Below are positions 6,094 to 14,973 of a stretch of DNA of 35,159 bases, piece after piece. Each line of letters begins with the position of its first letter. Position 1 is the stretch's first letter. This DNA is from an uncultured Bacteroidota bacterium (GTDB lineage Bacteria; Bacteroidota; Bacteroidia; Chitinophagales; Saprospiraceae): the NCBI GenBank assembly GCA_903933805.1, contig CAIZLM010000128.1, forward strand, positions 1 through 35,159, in the 5' to 3' direction. The position numbers were made by a program, and so were the translations under genes. The notes under the pieces are model-generated. The model saw nothing but the letters and a program-made list of their open reading frames with translations, was not told where the DNA came from and made no database searches.

Positions 6094-7245
6094 TTATTGG
6101 ATGATTTTTTCCACTTCGTAAATGGAATTTATTTTTCCAGCAAACAGGCAATAAAAGGTCGGCTTTTGGTGCAGTAAGGCGATTTCTGTTGGGCGACCAT
6201 CGTCTATGTGGCTGGACTTTAGCTTAGATTTTATGGTAAAATAGGAAAAAAGGTGCTCAAATCGAACCGAATCTGAAAAATATTGCTGCATTTGCGACAA
6301 CATTTTTCTGGCATTGGTGGTAGGTTTTCGGATACATTCGGTACAAATTCCTGGTGCTTCCGGTCTGCAATTGCTGTCTTCGGGAATTTGACAGTCGAAA
6401 TGCGGTGTATCCTCGTATGATATTTTGTGGTGGGTGTAGGCAACCGACGACAACGATAAAAGCCCGCTTAGCCCATACGGCATGATGGATCCAAAAGGGC
6501 CATCCATGACGGTCAGTCCTTTTTCTGTGAATAGATTCGATGAAACAAAGGCGATTTCAGCGATCTCATGGGTCAGGGCAAGATGTTCAAGTCCGAAAAT
6601 TTTATTGATGCCATTTGTTGCCGCATACGTGGCATTGATAACAATGGGAGCCGTTATACTGTGTGTGTGGAACTTATCCGCATTATTGCCCAGTTTTTTT
6701 TCGCAAGCCAACACTTCCCAGCAGTTCCCGTTCTCCGTGGATTGAATGATTTGCGTGTTGGTAAACAACTGGATAGCGGAAACGGCATTGATCTTTTCTC
6801 GATAATAATGCCCCAGTAAAATTGGATCAAAAGAGTGCTCGGATGTTTTATACAGGGCTTCCAATCGGTTGAAATTGAATAGGGGATGTTTTTCAACCCG
6901 TTCGCAAGCAATATGAAGATAGTCACAAAAACGCTCAAACTGACTTGGGTCGGTGAACGATCCATACCGGTCTATCGCGTAGTATTTCTCGAAAGAAACG
7001 TTGACGAAGGGCCTGTGTTCTGATAAGAAACGTTCGTTGTAATCGGCGCTCATCGCAGCGGTAGCAATGCTGCGGGGGTAATGGTAGCCACTGTGAAGTC
7101 TCGCTTGATTTACCAGCGATGCCTTTTGGAAAAGCCTGTCTTCTTTCTCCACCAAGGCAACTTTTGCGCCTTTTCCAGCGAGAAAAAGCGCAGCATAGCA
7201 TCCAAAAATACCACCTCCAATAACCAAATAATCGAATTTTTGCAT
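6094..7245 (-). CDS. FAD-dependent oxidoreductase (D-amino-acid-oxidase fold)
   Basis: This flavoenzyme of about 383 residues opens with the dinucleotide-binding motif VIGGGIFGCYAALFLA, followed by VALVEKE, the FAD ribose-binding acidic end of the second strand. The downstream NQARLHSGYHYPRS is the DAO-superfamily segment that contacts the flavin. The C-terminus (CLFAGKINSIYEVE) holds the last FAD-binding loop. The substrate cannot be told; relatives act on amino acids, glycerol-3-phosphate or 2-hydroxy acids. I prefer the ATG at 7245 (MQKFDYLVIGGG) because it puts the Rossmann motif at the usual distance; starts at 7275 or 7296 are also open. It lies downstream of bactofilin in the same direction, but a terminator-like hairpin separates them. 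It ends tail to tail with gldC. Confidence 0.82.
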   Translation of the reverse strand: MQKFDYLVIGGGIFGCYAALFLAGKGAKVALVEKEDRLFQKASLVNQARLHSGYHYPRSIATAAMSADYNERFLSEHRPFVNVSFEKYYAIDRYGSFTDPSQFERFCDYLHIACERVEKHPLFNFNRLEALYKTSEHSFDPILLGHYYREKINAVSAIQLFTNTQIIQSTENGNCWEVLACEKKLGNNADKFHTHSITAPIVINATYAATNGINKIFGLEHLALTHEIAEIAFVSSNLFTEKGLTVMDGPFGSIMPYGLSGLLSLSSVAYTHHKISYEDTPHFDCQIPEDSNCRPEAPGICTECIRKPTTNARKMLSQMQQYFSDSVRFEHLFSYFTIKSKLKSSHIDDGRPTEIALLHQKPTFYCLFAGKINSIYEVEKIIQ

Positions 7246-7320
7246 CAATTGGGGCGCGTTTGACGGATTCAGCATACTGCATTGGTGGAAGCACACAAGA
7301 CGGTACGCATTGTGGGGCTA

Positions 7321-10486: not shown

Positions 10487-11719
10487 ATGTGTTTATACAA
10501 TTTTTGTGTGAAAAATATTAATTGCGTGTTTAATGCCCCCAAATGGCGCTTATTTACCCTGCTTATTTTTACAGTGGTGGTATTAAACAGTCCCCTGCGT
10601 TCTCAAACTTACCCGCCAGTCATCGTGGGTGCGGAACGCATAGAGCAGTATTTGCCTTTCTTGGAAGGAAAGCAGGTGGGATTTGTGGTCAATCAGACTT
10701 CACGGGTTGGCGCCTGTCACTTGATAGATACCTTAAATAATCGCGGGGTTTGTGTCGCGAGGATTTTTGCACCGGAACACGGTTTTCGGGGGAATGCAGA
10801 TGCTGGTGAAAACATTGGAGAAACATTTGACGACCGCACAGGCGCTGTTGTTGCATCCATTTATGGGAAAAAGCGCAAGCCTACCAAAGAGGATTTGGAA
10901 GGGCTTGATGTCGTGGTATTTGATATTCAGGATGTTGGCGCGCGTTTTTATACCTATATCAGCACGCTATTTTATGTGATGGAAGCTTGTGCAGAAGCTG
11001 GTATTGTAGTGGTTGTACTGGATCGCCCCAACCCAAACGGCCACTTGGTGGATGGTCCTGTGCTTGATACCCGCTATACTTCATTTGTTGGCATCGCCCC
11101 CTTGCCGATTGCACACGGTTGTACCGTGGGTGAATTGGCACAATTGTTCAAAGGTGAGTGCTGGATCAATCAGGGTTATGATCTGAACCTCACCGTCGTG
11201 GCCTGCGAAAATTACACCCACCACACACCGTATGATTTGCCGATAAAACCATCTCCCAATTTACCCACCATGCGTTCTGTACTGCTGTACCCCTCCCTTT
11301 GTTTGTTTGAGGGCAGTACATGCAGCGTAGGGCGCGGAACGGAATGGCCTTTTGAAGTCGTGGGGCATCCTGATTTTGGATTGGACTCATTTTGTTTTAC
11401 GCCTGTTCCAAACAACGGAAACAAACATCCAATTTTTCAAGAATCTATTTGCTACGGTTGGGATTTTCACCAACTATCCATTGACAGCCTTAGAAATAGT
11501 AATCAATTGAATATCAGCTGGTTAATTGATTTTTACCGAAGTTTTCCAAACAAGTCCGTGTTCTTTCGCCGAGATAATTTTTTGGACTTGCTGTCGGGGT
11601 CCAATAAACTCAGGCAGCAAGTCCAAGCTGGAATGTCGGAGGCTGAAATTCGAGCAACTTGGTCGGAAGACCTTGCCGTTTTCCTATCGATTCGCAAGCG
11701 TTATTTGTTGTATGAATAG
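10487..11719 (+). CDS. Exo-beta-N-acetylmuramidase NamZ family protein (DUF1343)
   Basis: This 410-residue exported protein belongs to the DUF1343 family, now typified by Bacillus NamZ (glycoside hydrolase family 171), which removes terminal MurNAc from peptidoglycan fragments. Residues 21-40 (LFTLLIFTVVVLNSPLRSQ) form a signal peptide, although the part before it is unusually long. Family hallmarks are VGFVVNQTSRVG (64-75), APEHGFRGNADAGE (95-108, with the conserved Glu97), VVFDIQDVGARFYTYIST and LDRPNPNG. Length is normal. It points to recycling of wall material or scavenging of MurNAc, as in Bacteroidota that take up peptidoglycan pieces. The gene stands alone on this strand and ends 23 bp from the converging lysyl oxidase gene. 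Confidence 0.9.
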   Translation: MCLYNFCVKNINCVFNAPKWRLFTLLIFTVVVLNSPLRSQTYPPVIVGAERIEQYLPFLEGKQVGFVVNQTSRVGACHLIDTLNNRGVCVARIFAPEHGFRGNADAGENIGETFDDRTGAVVASIYGKKRKPTKEDLEGLDVVVFDIQDVGARFYTYISTLFYVMEACAEAGIVVVVLDRPNPNGHLVDGPVLDTRYTSFVGIAPLPIAHGCTVGELAQLFKGECWINQGYDLNLTVVACENYTHHTPYDLPIKPSPNLPTMRSVLLYPSLCLFEGSTCSVGRGTEWPFEVVGHPDFGLDSFCFTPVPNNGNKHPIFQESICYGWDFHQLSIDSLRNSNQLNISWLIDFYRSFPNKSVFFRRDNFLDLLSGSNKLRQQVQAGMSEAEIRATWSEDLAVFLSIRKRYLLYE

Positions 11720-11742: not shown

Positions 11743-14139
11743 TTATTGTGCAATAATTTTCGCATTGATGCGGCCATTGCTTCCACTCACCGTAATAAAA
11801 TAGGTGCCTTCAGCCAGTGTTTGGCGTTCAATGATAACAAAATTACTCCTTACGCCTTCAAAAGAACGCAGCACTTTTCCAGTTACATCCGTGAGGTTGA
11901 TGTTCATAGGCTCTGCGGCGTCATTGAGAAAGTAGATGGTTGTTTTTTCAACAAAAGGGTTGGGCTGTACAAACAACCCTGGTGGGTTACCGGTGGCATT
12001 GGTCACACTGCTGGTTTCGATACTTATACAAGAAGGGTTGGAAATGGCGGCACTGCTGCGCTGGTATTTTGAATTGACAACAGCAGTAATATTGTCGATG
12101 CAGACGGCTGTTTCCGTGAGGTTGGAGTAATGAATTCGCAAAAAATTGCTGGGAAGCGCATTTTTATCGATGGCGCTTTCGTCCAACCCCAATGCGATAA
12201 TTTCGCCAAGACTGGGATTGAATCGAATATTTGGATTGAATTCAGCCGCTAGGTTTTCAACGGATGTTATGGTTAATCCACTGACAGAAAATTCATAGCC
12301 CATGATTTTATTGAAAGGATTCACGATTTCAATATCAAAAGTTTTTGCCACCGTGTCCAATATTCCTGGTTTGAGTGAAACAAGGTCTTGGGTATTGTTG
12401 AACCCTGTTGGAAACTGACAAGGAAAAGATTGAATCCAATATTGGGGGATGTTTTGGTAGATATTACACTCTTGTAGCAACGCAGCGTCATAGACATTGA
12501 TGGTACCATCGCCATCGAGATCCAAGCAGGTGCTGGCATCTCCGCCGTTGACATTGGCCGCAGCCAAATACCCCAGGGCATCGGCTTCATTTCTGAGGGT
12601 ATCTTGGTTCCAGTCGCCATGGAGTGCTTGTCCATTACAAACGCCATTGCAGTCGGGCTGTGCATTTCCGAACACTTCACCGGCGCAATCGGTGAAGGGC
12701 AGGCACTGTTCATTGTGAAAAATCACTTCCGGATTCTGACCATCATAGGTAAGCGTAAAACAAGATTGTGCCCAGTTGTTGTTGTAGTTTCTTTCAACTC
12801 TACCGGCGCCATCAGGGCTTTTATCCCAGTTTACCCGCATGACAAGCGTATAATCGCCGGCGGGTATGTCGGTAATATCGACCCATTGGCAAGGAAGTCC
12901 TGCGTCGTAGATGTCCGCACAACCGGCGGAGATGCCCATGTTAACGCAGTTATATTTTGCATCACCGGGAGGACAAACCAAGTCGAATACACAAAAACCT
13001 GTCTTCGACCCAATGGGTATCCGCAAACCATTGGCATCAAAAAGGATATAATCGGCATAGCCAAGATAGTGCCAGTGGTTGTGGCAAGGGTCCCAAACGA
13101 ACTGTGTGGATGGTTCGTTGATGTCGCTGGGAGCATTGCCAATATGGTAGTCTTGTTCACCAATATTTTCTATGTACGTCGTAAAATTGAGAATATGTCT
13201 GATTCCAAGTCCTCGAATGCAGCCTTCTTCTACAGCACATGCATCAGGGTTGTCAATGGTTGTCAGGCTTAGGGACGAACGGAAAACATCCTCTCTTGTT
13301 ACCAGATCAGGTGCCTTGGGGCATGCAGGATCGCCGGGATATATACAGTCAGCACTGACAGTTGCCAGTGGCTCGTAGTTGCAGGCAGTTGGATCCATAC
13401 AGCCAACCACAGGTCCCGTATAGGAGAGGGTAAAATGGAGTGGGGTGGTGTCACAGTTGGCGGGCTCATATCGAATTCTGATAAAATAGTCCTGTCCGCC
13501 AGCCAAAATAAGGGATGCCAGTGCGCCATTGGAGCAGCCGCCATCGGCATAAAAATCAGCTCCGGTGGGGTCATTGGAAATGACGACCCCCTGGCATTTG
13601 CTGTACACCCAGATTTTGGAACCACAGGCATTGGCGGAGTCGCAGGTGTTGATTTGGTAAGTGCCGGTATCTACTGGAACAAACTGGTACCAAATTTGAT
13701 TTCCATTTGTCGTTGTCCAAGCGCCGGTGTCAATGGGGATGGCGCTTTCACAAGACGTGCCGAGGGGGCAGCCAAAACTAATGGTTTCACCGCTAAGATA
13801 GGTGCCACCGATATTTACATGTTCAAGCACCCCATTGACATACAACTTGTAATATCCATCAGGGGTCATTCCATCCCCGTAATCATCGGTAATTCGAAAA
13901 GTAGCGCACCCATTGTCGGGAATACAGTACGTGAACGAGTGGAATGAGGAGTCCGTTAACTGACCAACAGCATACGTTGTTCCGTTTTCAGCATTTTGAA
14001 TTGTCCATTCTACTTCATACCAATATTCATCACTGTTTATTTCCAACTTAATTTCACGCTGATCGGGCGGGCATTGTGCGAGCAACCCATGGCAAAAAAA
14101 AATGGAGATTAGAACTGGGAGCAATTGACGAATTCGCAT
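11743..14139 (-). CDS. Secreted multidomain lysyl oxidase-like protein with T9SS type A sorting domain
   Basis: This 798-residue extracellular protein (numbering from the ATG at 14139) has these parts in order: a signal peptide (1-22, ending GLLAQ); a DYGDGM domain (about 70-125); a PPC-like beta domain (about 130-245); a Cys motif CMDPTACNYEP; a lysyl oxidase domain (about 277-470); a dockerin-like calcium region with LDLDGDGTINVYDAALL (about 505-560); a cohesin-like beta domain (about 585-710); and a type A sorting domain starting LFVQPNPF. The oxidase site looks complete. Copper ligands are His353, His355 and His357 in WDPCHNHWHY. The LTQ-cofactor Lys379 (GSKTGFC) and Tyr411 (CADIYDAG) align with human Lys320 and Tyr355. 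The family block CQWVDITDIPAGDY is intact. Lysyl oxidases deaminate peptidyl lysine or amines. The open frame extends to 14199, but the signal peptide fits the 14139 start. Confidence 0.88.
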   Translation of the reverse strand: MRIRQLLPVLISIFFCHGLLAQCPPDQREIKLEINSDEYWYEVEWTIQNAENGTTYAVGQLTDSSFHSFTYCIPDNGCATFRITDDYGDGMTPDGYYKLYVNGVLEHVNIGGTYLSGETISFGCPLGTSCESAIPIDTGAWTTTNGNQIWYQFVPVDTGTYQINTCDSANACGSKIWVYSKCQGVVISNDPTGADFYADGGCSNGALASLILAGGQDYFIRIRYEPANCDTTPLHFTLSYTGPVVGCMDPTACNYEPLATVSADCIYPGDPACPKAPDLVTREDVFRSSLSLTTIDNPDACAVEEGCIRGLGIRHILNFTTYIENIGEQDYHIGNAPSDINEPSTQFVWDPCHNHWHYLGYADYILFDANGLRIPIGSKTGFCVFDLVCPPGDAKYNCVNMGISAGCADIYDAGLPCQWVDITDIPAGDYTLVMRVNWDKSPDGAGRVERNYNNNWAQSCFTLTYDGQNPEVIFHNEQCLPFTDCAGEVFGNAQPDCNGVCNGQALHGDWNQDTLRNEADALGYLAAANVNGGDASTCLDLDGDGTINVYDAALLQECNIYQNIPQYWIQSFPCQFPTGFNNTQDLVSLKPGILDTVAKTFDIEIVNPFNKIMGYEFSVSGLTITSVENLAAEFNPNIRFNPSLGEIIALGLDESAIDKNALPSNFLRIHYSNLTETAVCIDNITAVVNSKYQRSSAAISNPSCISIETSSVTNATGNPPGLFVQPNPFVEKTTIYFLNDAAEPMNINLTDVTGKVLRSFEGVRSNFVIIERQTLAEGTYFITVSGSNGRINAKIIAQ

Positions 14140-14168: not shown

Positions 14169-14199
14169 CAAAGATAATGGCAGTGATATTTGTAAACAA
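14169..14199 (-). promoter_or_regulatory. Bacteroidota-type promoter for the lysyl oxidase gene
   Basis: On the minus strand TTG (14199-14197) is followed after exactly 20 nt by TATCTTTG (14176-14169). This fits the -33 TTG and -7 TAnnTTTG spacing of Bacteroidota housekeeping promoters. The expected mRNA start leaves a leader of roughly 20-25 nt before the ATG at 14139, which supports that start. Confidence 0.55.
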
Positions 14200-14322: not shown

Positions 14323-14973
14323 ATGCTAAAGACCAAGTACGCGATCATTTTCACCTTATTGAGTTGTTTTTTACGTGCTGCGAATGCGCAAAACGGTGGT
14401 GATTGGATTCTAAAAAATGAAAAAGAGGGTGTAAAGGTCTATTATCGAAAGACATCTGATGTATATGAGTTGAAATTGGTTACCTCCATTCAATCAAGTA
14501 TATCTGGTTTGATAAAATTGTTGTCGGAAGTGGAGCATTATCCTCAATGGGGATATAAAATTGCTGAATCAACATTGTTGTCACAAACTTCCAGAACAGA
14601 GGCTGTTTATTATTCGAGACTAGATTTTCCTTGGCCACTGGATGATCGAGACATTATTATGCGCAACCACGTTGTACAAGATGTGTCAACAGGAAAAATA
14701 ACGGCCTCCAGTGTTGCCGTTCCTGACTTTATTCCCGCCAAGAATGGTATTACGCGCATCAGAAATGCCAACACCACCTGGGAAATAACACCAGGCACAG
14801 CGGGTTGGTTGTATGTTGAATACAGTATTTACTCAGATCCAGGTGGAAGTTTGCCTGATTGGCTCATCAACATGGCCATTGACGTTGGTCCCCGTGAAAC
14901 CATGAACAACATTCGTAAATTTGTTCGACAGCCCACCTATCAAACTGCAAAACTGGCCCACATCAGAGAATAG
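14323..14973 (+). CDS. START-domain lipid-binding family protein, exported
   Basis: This 216-residue protein has a signal peptide (residues 1-22, cleaved near AANAQN) and one START/SRPBCC domain (about 25-205). Typical features are GGDWILKNEKEGVKVYYRK at the start, the helix-breaking VEHYPQWGYKIAESTLL, and the conserved strand pair YYSRLDFPWPLDDRDIIMR. START domains form a hydrophobic cavity for lipids or other nonpolar ligands. In Bacteroidota these exported single-domain versions have no firmly assigned ligand. The gene stands alone, divergent from the lysyl oxidase gene. Its last codons form one arm of a 17-bp inverted repeat shared with the region before the converging topA end. Confidence 0.8.
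   Translation: MLKTKYAIIFTLLSCFLRAANAQNGGDWILKNEKEGVKVYYRKTSDVYELKLVTSIQSSISGLIKLLSEVEHYPQWGYKIAESTLLSQTSRTEAVYYSRLDFPWPLDDRDIIMRNHVVQDVSTGKITASSVAVPDFIPAKNGITRIRNANTTWEITPGTAGWLYVEYSIYSDPGGSLPDWLINMAIDVGPRETMNNIRKFVRQPTYQTAKLAHIRE

Follow-up and report, generated by a model that had tools for sequence, protein, structure and literature searches.

A lysyl oxidase domain in a predicted type IX secretion cargo protein of Saprospiraceae bacteria

Lysyl oxidase (LOX) is the copper enzyme that animals use for collagen cross-linking. Bacterial LOX has been known since 2015, when homologues were described from Bacteroidetes, Actinobacteria, Proteobacteria, Gemmatimonadetes, Deinococcus-Thermus and archaea (Grau-Bove et al. 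2015, PMC4448552); in the accessible part of that survey, the histidine core and the residues of the lysine tyrosylquinone (LTQ) cofactor were widely kept, and only three of the prokaryotic sequences went beyond a lone LOX domain with or without a signal peptide or transmembrane region. Here we describe a LOX gene within a 35,159-nucleotide stretch of DNA (the window; contig CAIZLM010000128.1) from an uncultured Saprospiraceae bacterium. Its product has the histidine core and LTQ residues that are widespread in the sequences of that survey, but differs from its mostly single-domain proteins in a fixed multi-domain architecture, predicted to be cargo of the type IX secretion system (T9SS), that recurs among its relatives. 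This recurrent, putatively exported form and its frequency within the order are the new part, and many bacteria related to the source appear from their sequences to carry a complete copy of the enzyme.

The only prokaryotic LOX studied in the literature that we found is HTU-LOX, which is archaeal (Haloterrigena turkmenica, a haloarchaeon) and whose activity was seen after refolding (PMC6452851). According to the accessible text of that report, the refolded protein is an amine oxidase sensitive to beta-aminopropionitrile and acts on taurine, glycine and other simple amines, lysine polymers, aminoglycosides and polymyxin; amine oxidase activity was undetectable in cultured cells, and the authors call the native role cryptic. 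No further paper on bacterial or archaeal LOX was recognised by title among the matches listed. A search that left out most subscription journals and all bioRxiv preprints returned no publication on a T9SS-exported LOX, and the three exceptions mentioned in the accessible part of PMC4448552 may include one.

The lysyl oxidase domain and its catalytic residues

An earlier note, made from the sequence letters, had placed a T9SS-exported lysyl oxidase at positions 11743-14139, and these coordinates match a single intact open reading frame (ORF) of 798 aa on the minus strand, running from an ATG at 14139 to a TAA that ends at 11743. The frame stays open upstream of the ATG, and an alternative TTG start at 14199 is possible. 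The window is the entire contig, belonging to a genome of 4.2 Mb in 336 contigs (97% complete) in which this protein is the one match found to the Pfam lysyl oxidase family PF01186.

By each sequence and fold test run, the domain belongs to the LOX family. PF01186 matched residues 311-469 with an E-value of 4.3e-28 (98.8 bits against a curated cut-off of 20.4), and a phmmer search against solved structures retrieved human LOXL2 (5ze3) at 1.3e-22, with the C-H-x-H-x-H motif and the LTQ lysine and tyrosine in register. When modelled alone, the domain reached a mean pLDDT of 92.7 and resembled LOXL2 with Z 20.9 (rmsd 2.7, 192 aligned residues, 32% identity), the runner-up entry scoring Z 8.0 in a list that re-ranks Foldseek matches rather than searching independently. 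The absence of other LOX structures or folds from such lists carries no information. Foldseek itself gave an E-value of 2.4e-15 and a TM-score of 0.74 on the query. The full-length model (mean pLDDT 86.7, pTM 0.59) also placed a LOX fold at residues 251-489 (5ze3, Z 20.3).

The copper motif, the proposed LTQ pair K379 and Y411 and the conserved block CQWVDITDIPAGDY were all as the earlier note had described them; C352, H353, H355, H357, K379 and Y411 were confirmed at those positions, the lysine and tyrosine aligned with the LTQ residues of LOXL2 (Table 1), and the block starts at residue 417. Relatives were collected with two short motifs (CQWVDITD and an N-x-G-x-x-D block), such that conservation inside these motifs is partly due to selection. 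This approach identified 474 stretches encoding relatives in a collection holding one genome per species, and catalytic residues were checked in the best-scoring 80 (the named loci), which together with the window protein make up the 81 sequences counted below. H353, H355, H357, K379 and Y411 were conserved in all 81, and an alignment of 28 relatives showed the same five residues. We do not put this conservation down to chance; the five columns lie outside both search motifs, although the 80 relatives were the top scorers among the 474.

Complete proteins of the same layout (∼800 aa) were found at 60 of the 80 named loci, with a C-terminal part of 318-345 residues and a usable start, while the remaining 20 were longer, cut by a contig end, masked or unclear in their start. 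The window protein is thus no lone oddity. An alignment of 49 full-length rows was built from the window protein and 48 of these 60 relatives; 12 were excluded by hand, mainly as near-duplicates and some for uncertain starts. Among these rows K379 was the sole invariant lysine of the protein's 16, the other 15 being present in 1 to 41 of them. Beyond the signal peptide, 31 of 32 cysteines were invariant and the remaining one was kept in 48 rows. Ten cysteines of the LOX domain were invariant in all 81 sequences, and eight of these align with LOXL2 core cysteines (Cys573, 579, 625, 657, 663, 673, 685 and 695 of ten, numbered as in the accessible part of PMC9180022), a comparison by alignment only in which the fifth LOXL2 disulfide pair (Cys732-Cys746) falls beyond the aligned stretch. 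Mean identity to the window protein was 57% across the LOX domain against 31-42% for the five other domains; it was higher, at 63%, only in the 25-residue linker that precedes the LOX domain. The LOX domain has very probably been kept for catalysis.

Human LOXL2 and the window protein thus have in common the fold, the HxHxH motif, the LTQ lysine and tyrosine and eight core cysteines in register; the window protein differs in lacking any Pfam SRCR match and in carrying bacterial modules instead (see below). A further difference concerns His289 of human LOX, whose aligned position is Asp in 42 of the 49 rows, matching the remark in the accessible text of PMC4448552 that bacterial, fungal and amoebozoan sequences lack this histidine, the first of the animal motif. 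The distance between lysine and tyrosine in a precursor-like model cannot rule out an LTQ enzyme, and refutation by such a distance, as the earlier note had proposed, is unsound, because lysine and tyrosine lie 16.6 Å apart in the crystal structure of the Zn-bound LOXL2 precursor though mature LOXL2 carries LTQ (PMC9659206, accessible part).

Table 1. Features of the LOX protein and of neighbouring genes, in window coordinates.
Feature	Coordinates	Strand	Basis
T9SS-exported lysyl oxidase ORF (predicted), 798 aa	11743..14139	minus	ORF, Pfam
Putative signal peptide, residues 1-22	14074..14139	minus	By-eye call, cleavage before C23; model shows helix 2-17
N-terminal beta domain, residues 23-122	13774..14073	minus	Model, without family assignment; Cys23, 72 and 78 conserved
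PPC-like beta sandwich, residues 123-242	13414..13773	minus	Fold match 4hpk Z 11.6, 5sv5 Z 10.8
Lysyl oxidase domain, residues 271-473	12721..13329	minus	Pfam, LOXL2 sequence and fold match, conservation
Copper motif C352-H353-N-H355-W-H357 (predicted)	13069..13086	minus	Alignment
K379, predicted LTQ lysine (LOXL2 Lys653)	13003..13005	minus	Alignment, conservation
Y411, predicted LTQ tyrosine (LOXL2 Tyr689)	12907..12909	minus	Alignment, conservation
Cys-rich and dockerin-like segment, residues 474-575, two Asp-rich loops (509-520, 540-551)	12415..12720	minus	Weak Pfam match, conserved Asp
Cohesin-like beta domain, residues 581-711	12007..12399	minus	Model, fold match
T9SS type-A C-terminal sorting domain, residues 720-798	11746..11982	minus	Pfam, TIGR04183, fold match
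NamZ exo-muramidase gene, converges on LOX gene	10487-11719	plus	Pfam
START-domain gene, divergent from LOX gene	14323-14973	plus	Pfam
DAO-type FAD oxidoreductase	6094-7296		Pfam
Giant surface protein, 2493 aa	26268-33749	minus	Pfam

Export signal, accessory modules and distribution

Sequence and fold evidence together support placing the LOX-family domain, which shows the sequence marks expected of a competent Cu/LTQ enzyme, in a T9SS cargo protein. The C-terminal residues 726-796 matched the Pfam Por_Secre_tail family (E 1.8e-7), the NCBIfam type-A tail TIGR04183 passed its cut-off of 23 with 33.8 bits, and the modelled tail folds like solved T9SS tails (mirolase Z 11.8, PorZ 11.2, and NucA too). 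A PF18962 tail was found in all 49 full-length rows at E up to 0.01, as was the LOX domain. SprA (2325 bits), the component by which the T9SS machinery was judged, is encoded in the source genome; Por_Secre_tail has 121 matches there (E up to 0.001), part of them below the curated cut-off, so the T9SS route exists in this organism. The T9SS C-terminal signal is normally removed as the cargo becomes anchored or released.

Of the modules that the earlier note had listed, T9SS sorting was recovered throughout, the cohesin-like domain was supported by fold and not by Pfam, and the dockerin-like segment gave a weak match. Residues 581-711 adopt a cohesin jelly-roll fold in the model (6kgf_C, Z 11.4, rmsd 2.8, 123 aligned residues, 14% identity); no cohesin family of Pfam matched the protein at E up to 1, and for this reason we call the module cohesin-like only. 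The Pfam dockerin type I match reached 14.4 bits, under its cut-off of 22.9, and 5 of the 49 rows matched at E up to 0.01. We regard the dockerin-like assignment as not secure, but the loop-end residues Asp509, 520, 540 and 551 were invariant in all 49 rows, the inner loop positions being variable. The beta sandwich at residues 124-240 resembles the collagen-binding and PPC domains of clostridial and Bacillus collagenases, with the ColG collagen-binding domain (4hpk) and a collagenase PPC domain (5sv5) tied at 11-12% identity (Table 1); the Pfam PPC family had no match in the protein. Searches of the source genome for further copies of the flanking modules gave one weak 78-residue match, besides the protein itself, for the N-terminal query and none for the C-terminal part.

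Within the genus, PF01186 matches were found in 26 of 42 genomes (the source included), one copy each, and in 18 of the 29 genomes of good quality. Across the order, 99 of 396 genomes had a match: in 70 it reached E 1e-15 or better (hand count) and in the other 29 there were weaker ones only, while a sample of the phylum gave 4 of 395 genomes, the source included, with a strong match in the source and one other only. Strong LOX matches are therefore common in this order but rare across the phylum sample. The two loci read among the weaker matches of the order (L030 and L032), and one of the same taxonomic class (L033), encode PF01186 proteins of a second, divergent class, with the motif PGHxHxH or THGHIH lacking the preceding Cys, followed by K-x-S-Y/F-C and D-x-Y. 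The 29 order genomes with weak matches only may hold just this divergent class.

The earlier note had raised the possibility of dating a transfer by phylogeny. A quick tree was run, rooted by choice on LOXL2 (one animal sequence) and the LOX of Gemmatirosa kalamazoonensis, both on very long branches, which makes it weak on origin and unable to date a transfer from two outgroup rows. Rows labelled by order clustered by order (13 changes where shuffling gave a mean of 25.6, and more tightly than in any of the 200 shuffles), though the orders were not clean clades and Saprospirales alone accounted for 7 changes. The window LOX grouped among Saprospiraceae, its nearest named relatives. The branch dividing LOXL2 and Gemmatirosa from the 81 Bacteroidota-type rows had an SH-aLRT value of 86, not starred.

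Spread by phages or plasmids was considered and rejected. No phage matched the LOX protein and a pattern scan of viral contigs yielded no relative, while the plasmid search returned one distant relative, the Gemmatirosa protein, on a 1.1-Mb replicon (NZ_CP007129.1). This protein shares the LOX domain (29% identity over 88% of the query) but is short, at 356 aa, and as a query it retrieved itself only.

Proposed function and alternatives

The protein is most likely, judging by sequence and model, an extracellular Cu/LTQ amine oxidase. Its signal peptide would take it out of the cytoplasm and T9SS would carry it across the outer membrane; outside the cell, His353, His355 and His357 would bind Cu2+, and the LTQ cofactor would form when oxidised Tyr411 is captured by Lys379. 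The enzyme would then convert primary amines to aldehydes, giving off H2O2 and ammonia, and its likeliest targets would be the lysine side chains of exposed proteins; the PPC-like, dockerin-like and cohesin-like modules may position the enzyme. The analysis shows the family, the residues, the modelled domain fold, the export signal and the conserved architecture, whereas we infer metal binding, LTQ formation and activity, and guess the substrate and the purpose. Our best guess, which we consider plausible, is a role in matrix cross-linking; that the protein is such an oxidase, and that the cell most likely uses it to harden or cross-link its own surface proteins, sheath or floc matrix, is a combined reading that we hold with somewhat better than even confidence.

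A number of observations weigh against this proposal. No report of activity, copper or LTQ was found for the T9SS LOX family, and no substrate for the protein was found among its neighbours, the giant adhesin encoded in the same window or the collagen-like protein of the source genome. The gene is without a match in 16 of the 42 genus genomes, including 11 of the 29 of good quality, and is thus probably dispensable. A survey of neighbours at 81 loci, many ended by contig edges (counting ORFs of at least 110 aa no more than 10 kb away), yielded no operon partner pointing to a substrate. The commonest neighbour, the START-gene family, occurred at 12 loci including the window, and the three other families present in 5 or more reached 5 or 6. 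An operon or partner gene was consequently rejected, and the LOX gene appears to stand alone. The giant adhesin is a poor candidate as well: the earlier note had remarked on its scarcity of lysine, and we counted 16 lysines in 2493 aa (0.6%; arginine 0.7%). Lysine averaged 3.1% (range 0.7-5.2%) in 29 T9SS cargo proteins of the source genome, sampled as pieces of up to about 585 residues from the 30 best-scoring of the 121 tail matches, one of which had no usable frame; on this scale the adhesin lies towards the lower end of a low-lysine class. The collagen-like protein has no lysine at all in its GXY stretch.

This protein, of 347 aa, is encoded at L120:591-1634 of the source genome, just after a T9SS-tail protein, and its collagen-like GXY stretch is short. 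Across the genus, matches to the collagen family PF01391 at E up to 0.001 were found in 20 of 42 genomes (18 over the cut-off), many of those in two genomes (G453 and G455) being short or broken frames that look spurious. Such matches were present in 15 of 26 LOX-positive and 5 of 16 LOX-negative genomes (Fisher p 0.12), and a stricter, hand-read set (over the cut-off, open frame of 300 aa or more) gave 11 of 26 against 5 of 16 (p 0.53). Co-occurrence thus leans slightly the way that a collagen substrate would predict, without significance. A collagen-like substrate is not supported, although it may still apply in other genomes.

The enzyme could alternatively be an active extracellular Cu/LTQ amine oxidase directed at small amines or foreign material, either to gain nutrient amines or to release H2O2 against neighbours or prey. 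The broad substrate range of HTU-LOX, simple amines included in the accessible part of PMC6452851, fits this reading, as do the fairly lysine-poor sample of T9SS cargo and the failure to find a partner substrate gene nearby. Yet no evident amine-catabolism gene was seen among the Pfam-named neighbours in the window, where one DAO-type FAD oxidoreductase of unknown substrate is encoded (Table 1), and the fusion of putative binding modules to a T9SS tail would point to action at a particular place more than to bulk nutrition. We consider this use unlikely, though a serious competitor.

Much less probable is that the domain is a catalytically dead LOX fold retained as a structural or binding module. 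PPC-like and cohesin-like modules are frequent in binding proteins, and the failure to find activity reports for any member of the T9SS LOX family would be in keeping with such a module. A binding-only module, however, would not be expected to hold the lysine, the tyrosine and three histidines unchanged, as they are in all 81 sequences, with K379 the one lysine of the protein to be invariant.

An enzyme acquired from an animal and targeting animal collagen or elastin is the least credible option. In its favour, the best fold matches of the PPC-like domain include the ColG collagen-binding domains, but a plain collagenase PPC domain scores equally well, all at low identity. The family is also frequent in the order, with relatives in 474 stretches, and rows cluster by bacterial order in a tree that is a weak test given one animal sequence and a chosen root. 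The link to animal material drawn by the earlier note is not supported; the quick tree (single animal sequence, used as root) showed no hint of a recent animal origin.

Returning to cross-linking of the cell's own proteins, a broader reading would be that Saprospiraceae and their kin run their own LOX-based, T9SS-delivered and collagen-independent system of extracellular protein cross-linking, a bacterial counterpart of animal matrix maturation that has been overlooked in a sizeable fraction of the order. We advance this only tentatively, as a view more apt to be wrong than right. Saprospiraceae are common in wastewater flocs, and covalent protein cross-linking in the floc matrix, if true, would matter practically in wastewater treatment. 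The fixed architecture, single copy in the genus, predicted export signal and kept catalytic residues make the family tractable for the study of LOX function without animal collagen, and a relative is encoded in a named and presumably culturable strain, Phaeodactylibacter luteus KCTC 42180.

The Pfam-named genes that flank the LOX gene look housekeeping or unrelated, and include a NamZ muramidase, a START-domain protein, a DNA topoisomerase and a poly(A) polymerase-type enzyme, among others. The giant adhesin contains Ig-like repeats that fall under Pfam models of the nucleoporin POM152 (1e-42), together with a SprB repeat and a CHU_C tail.

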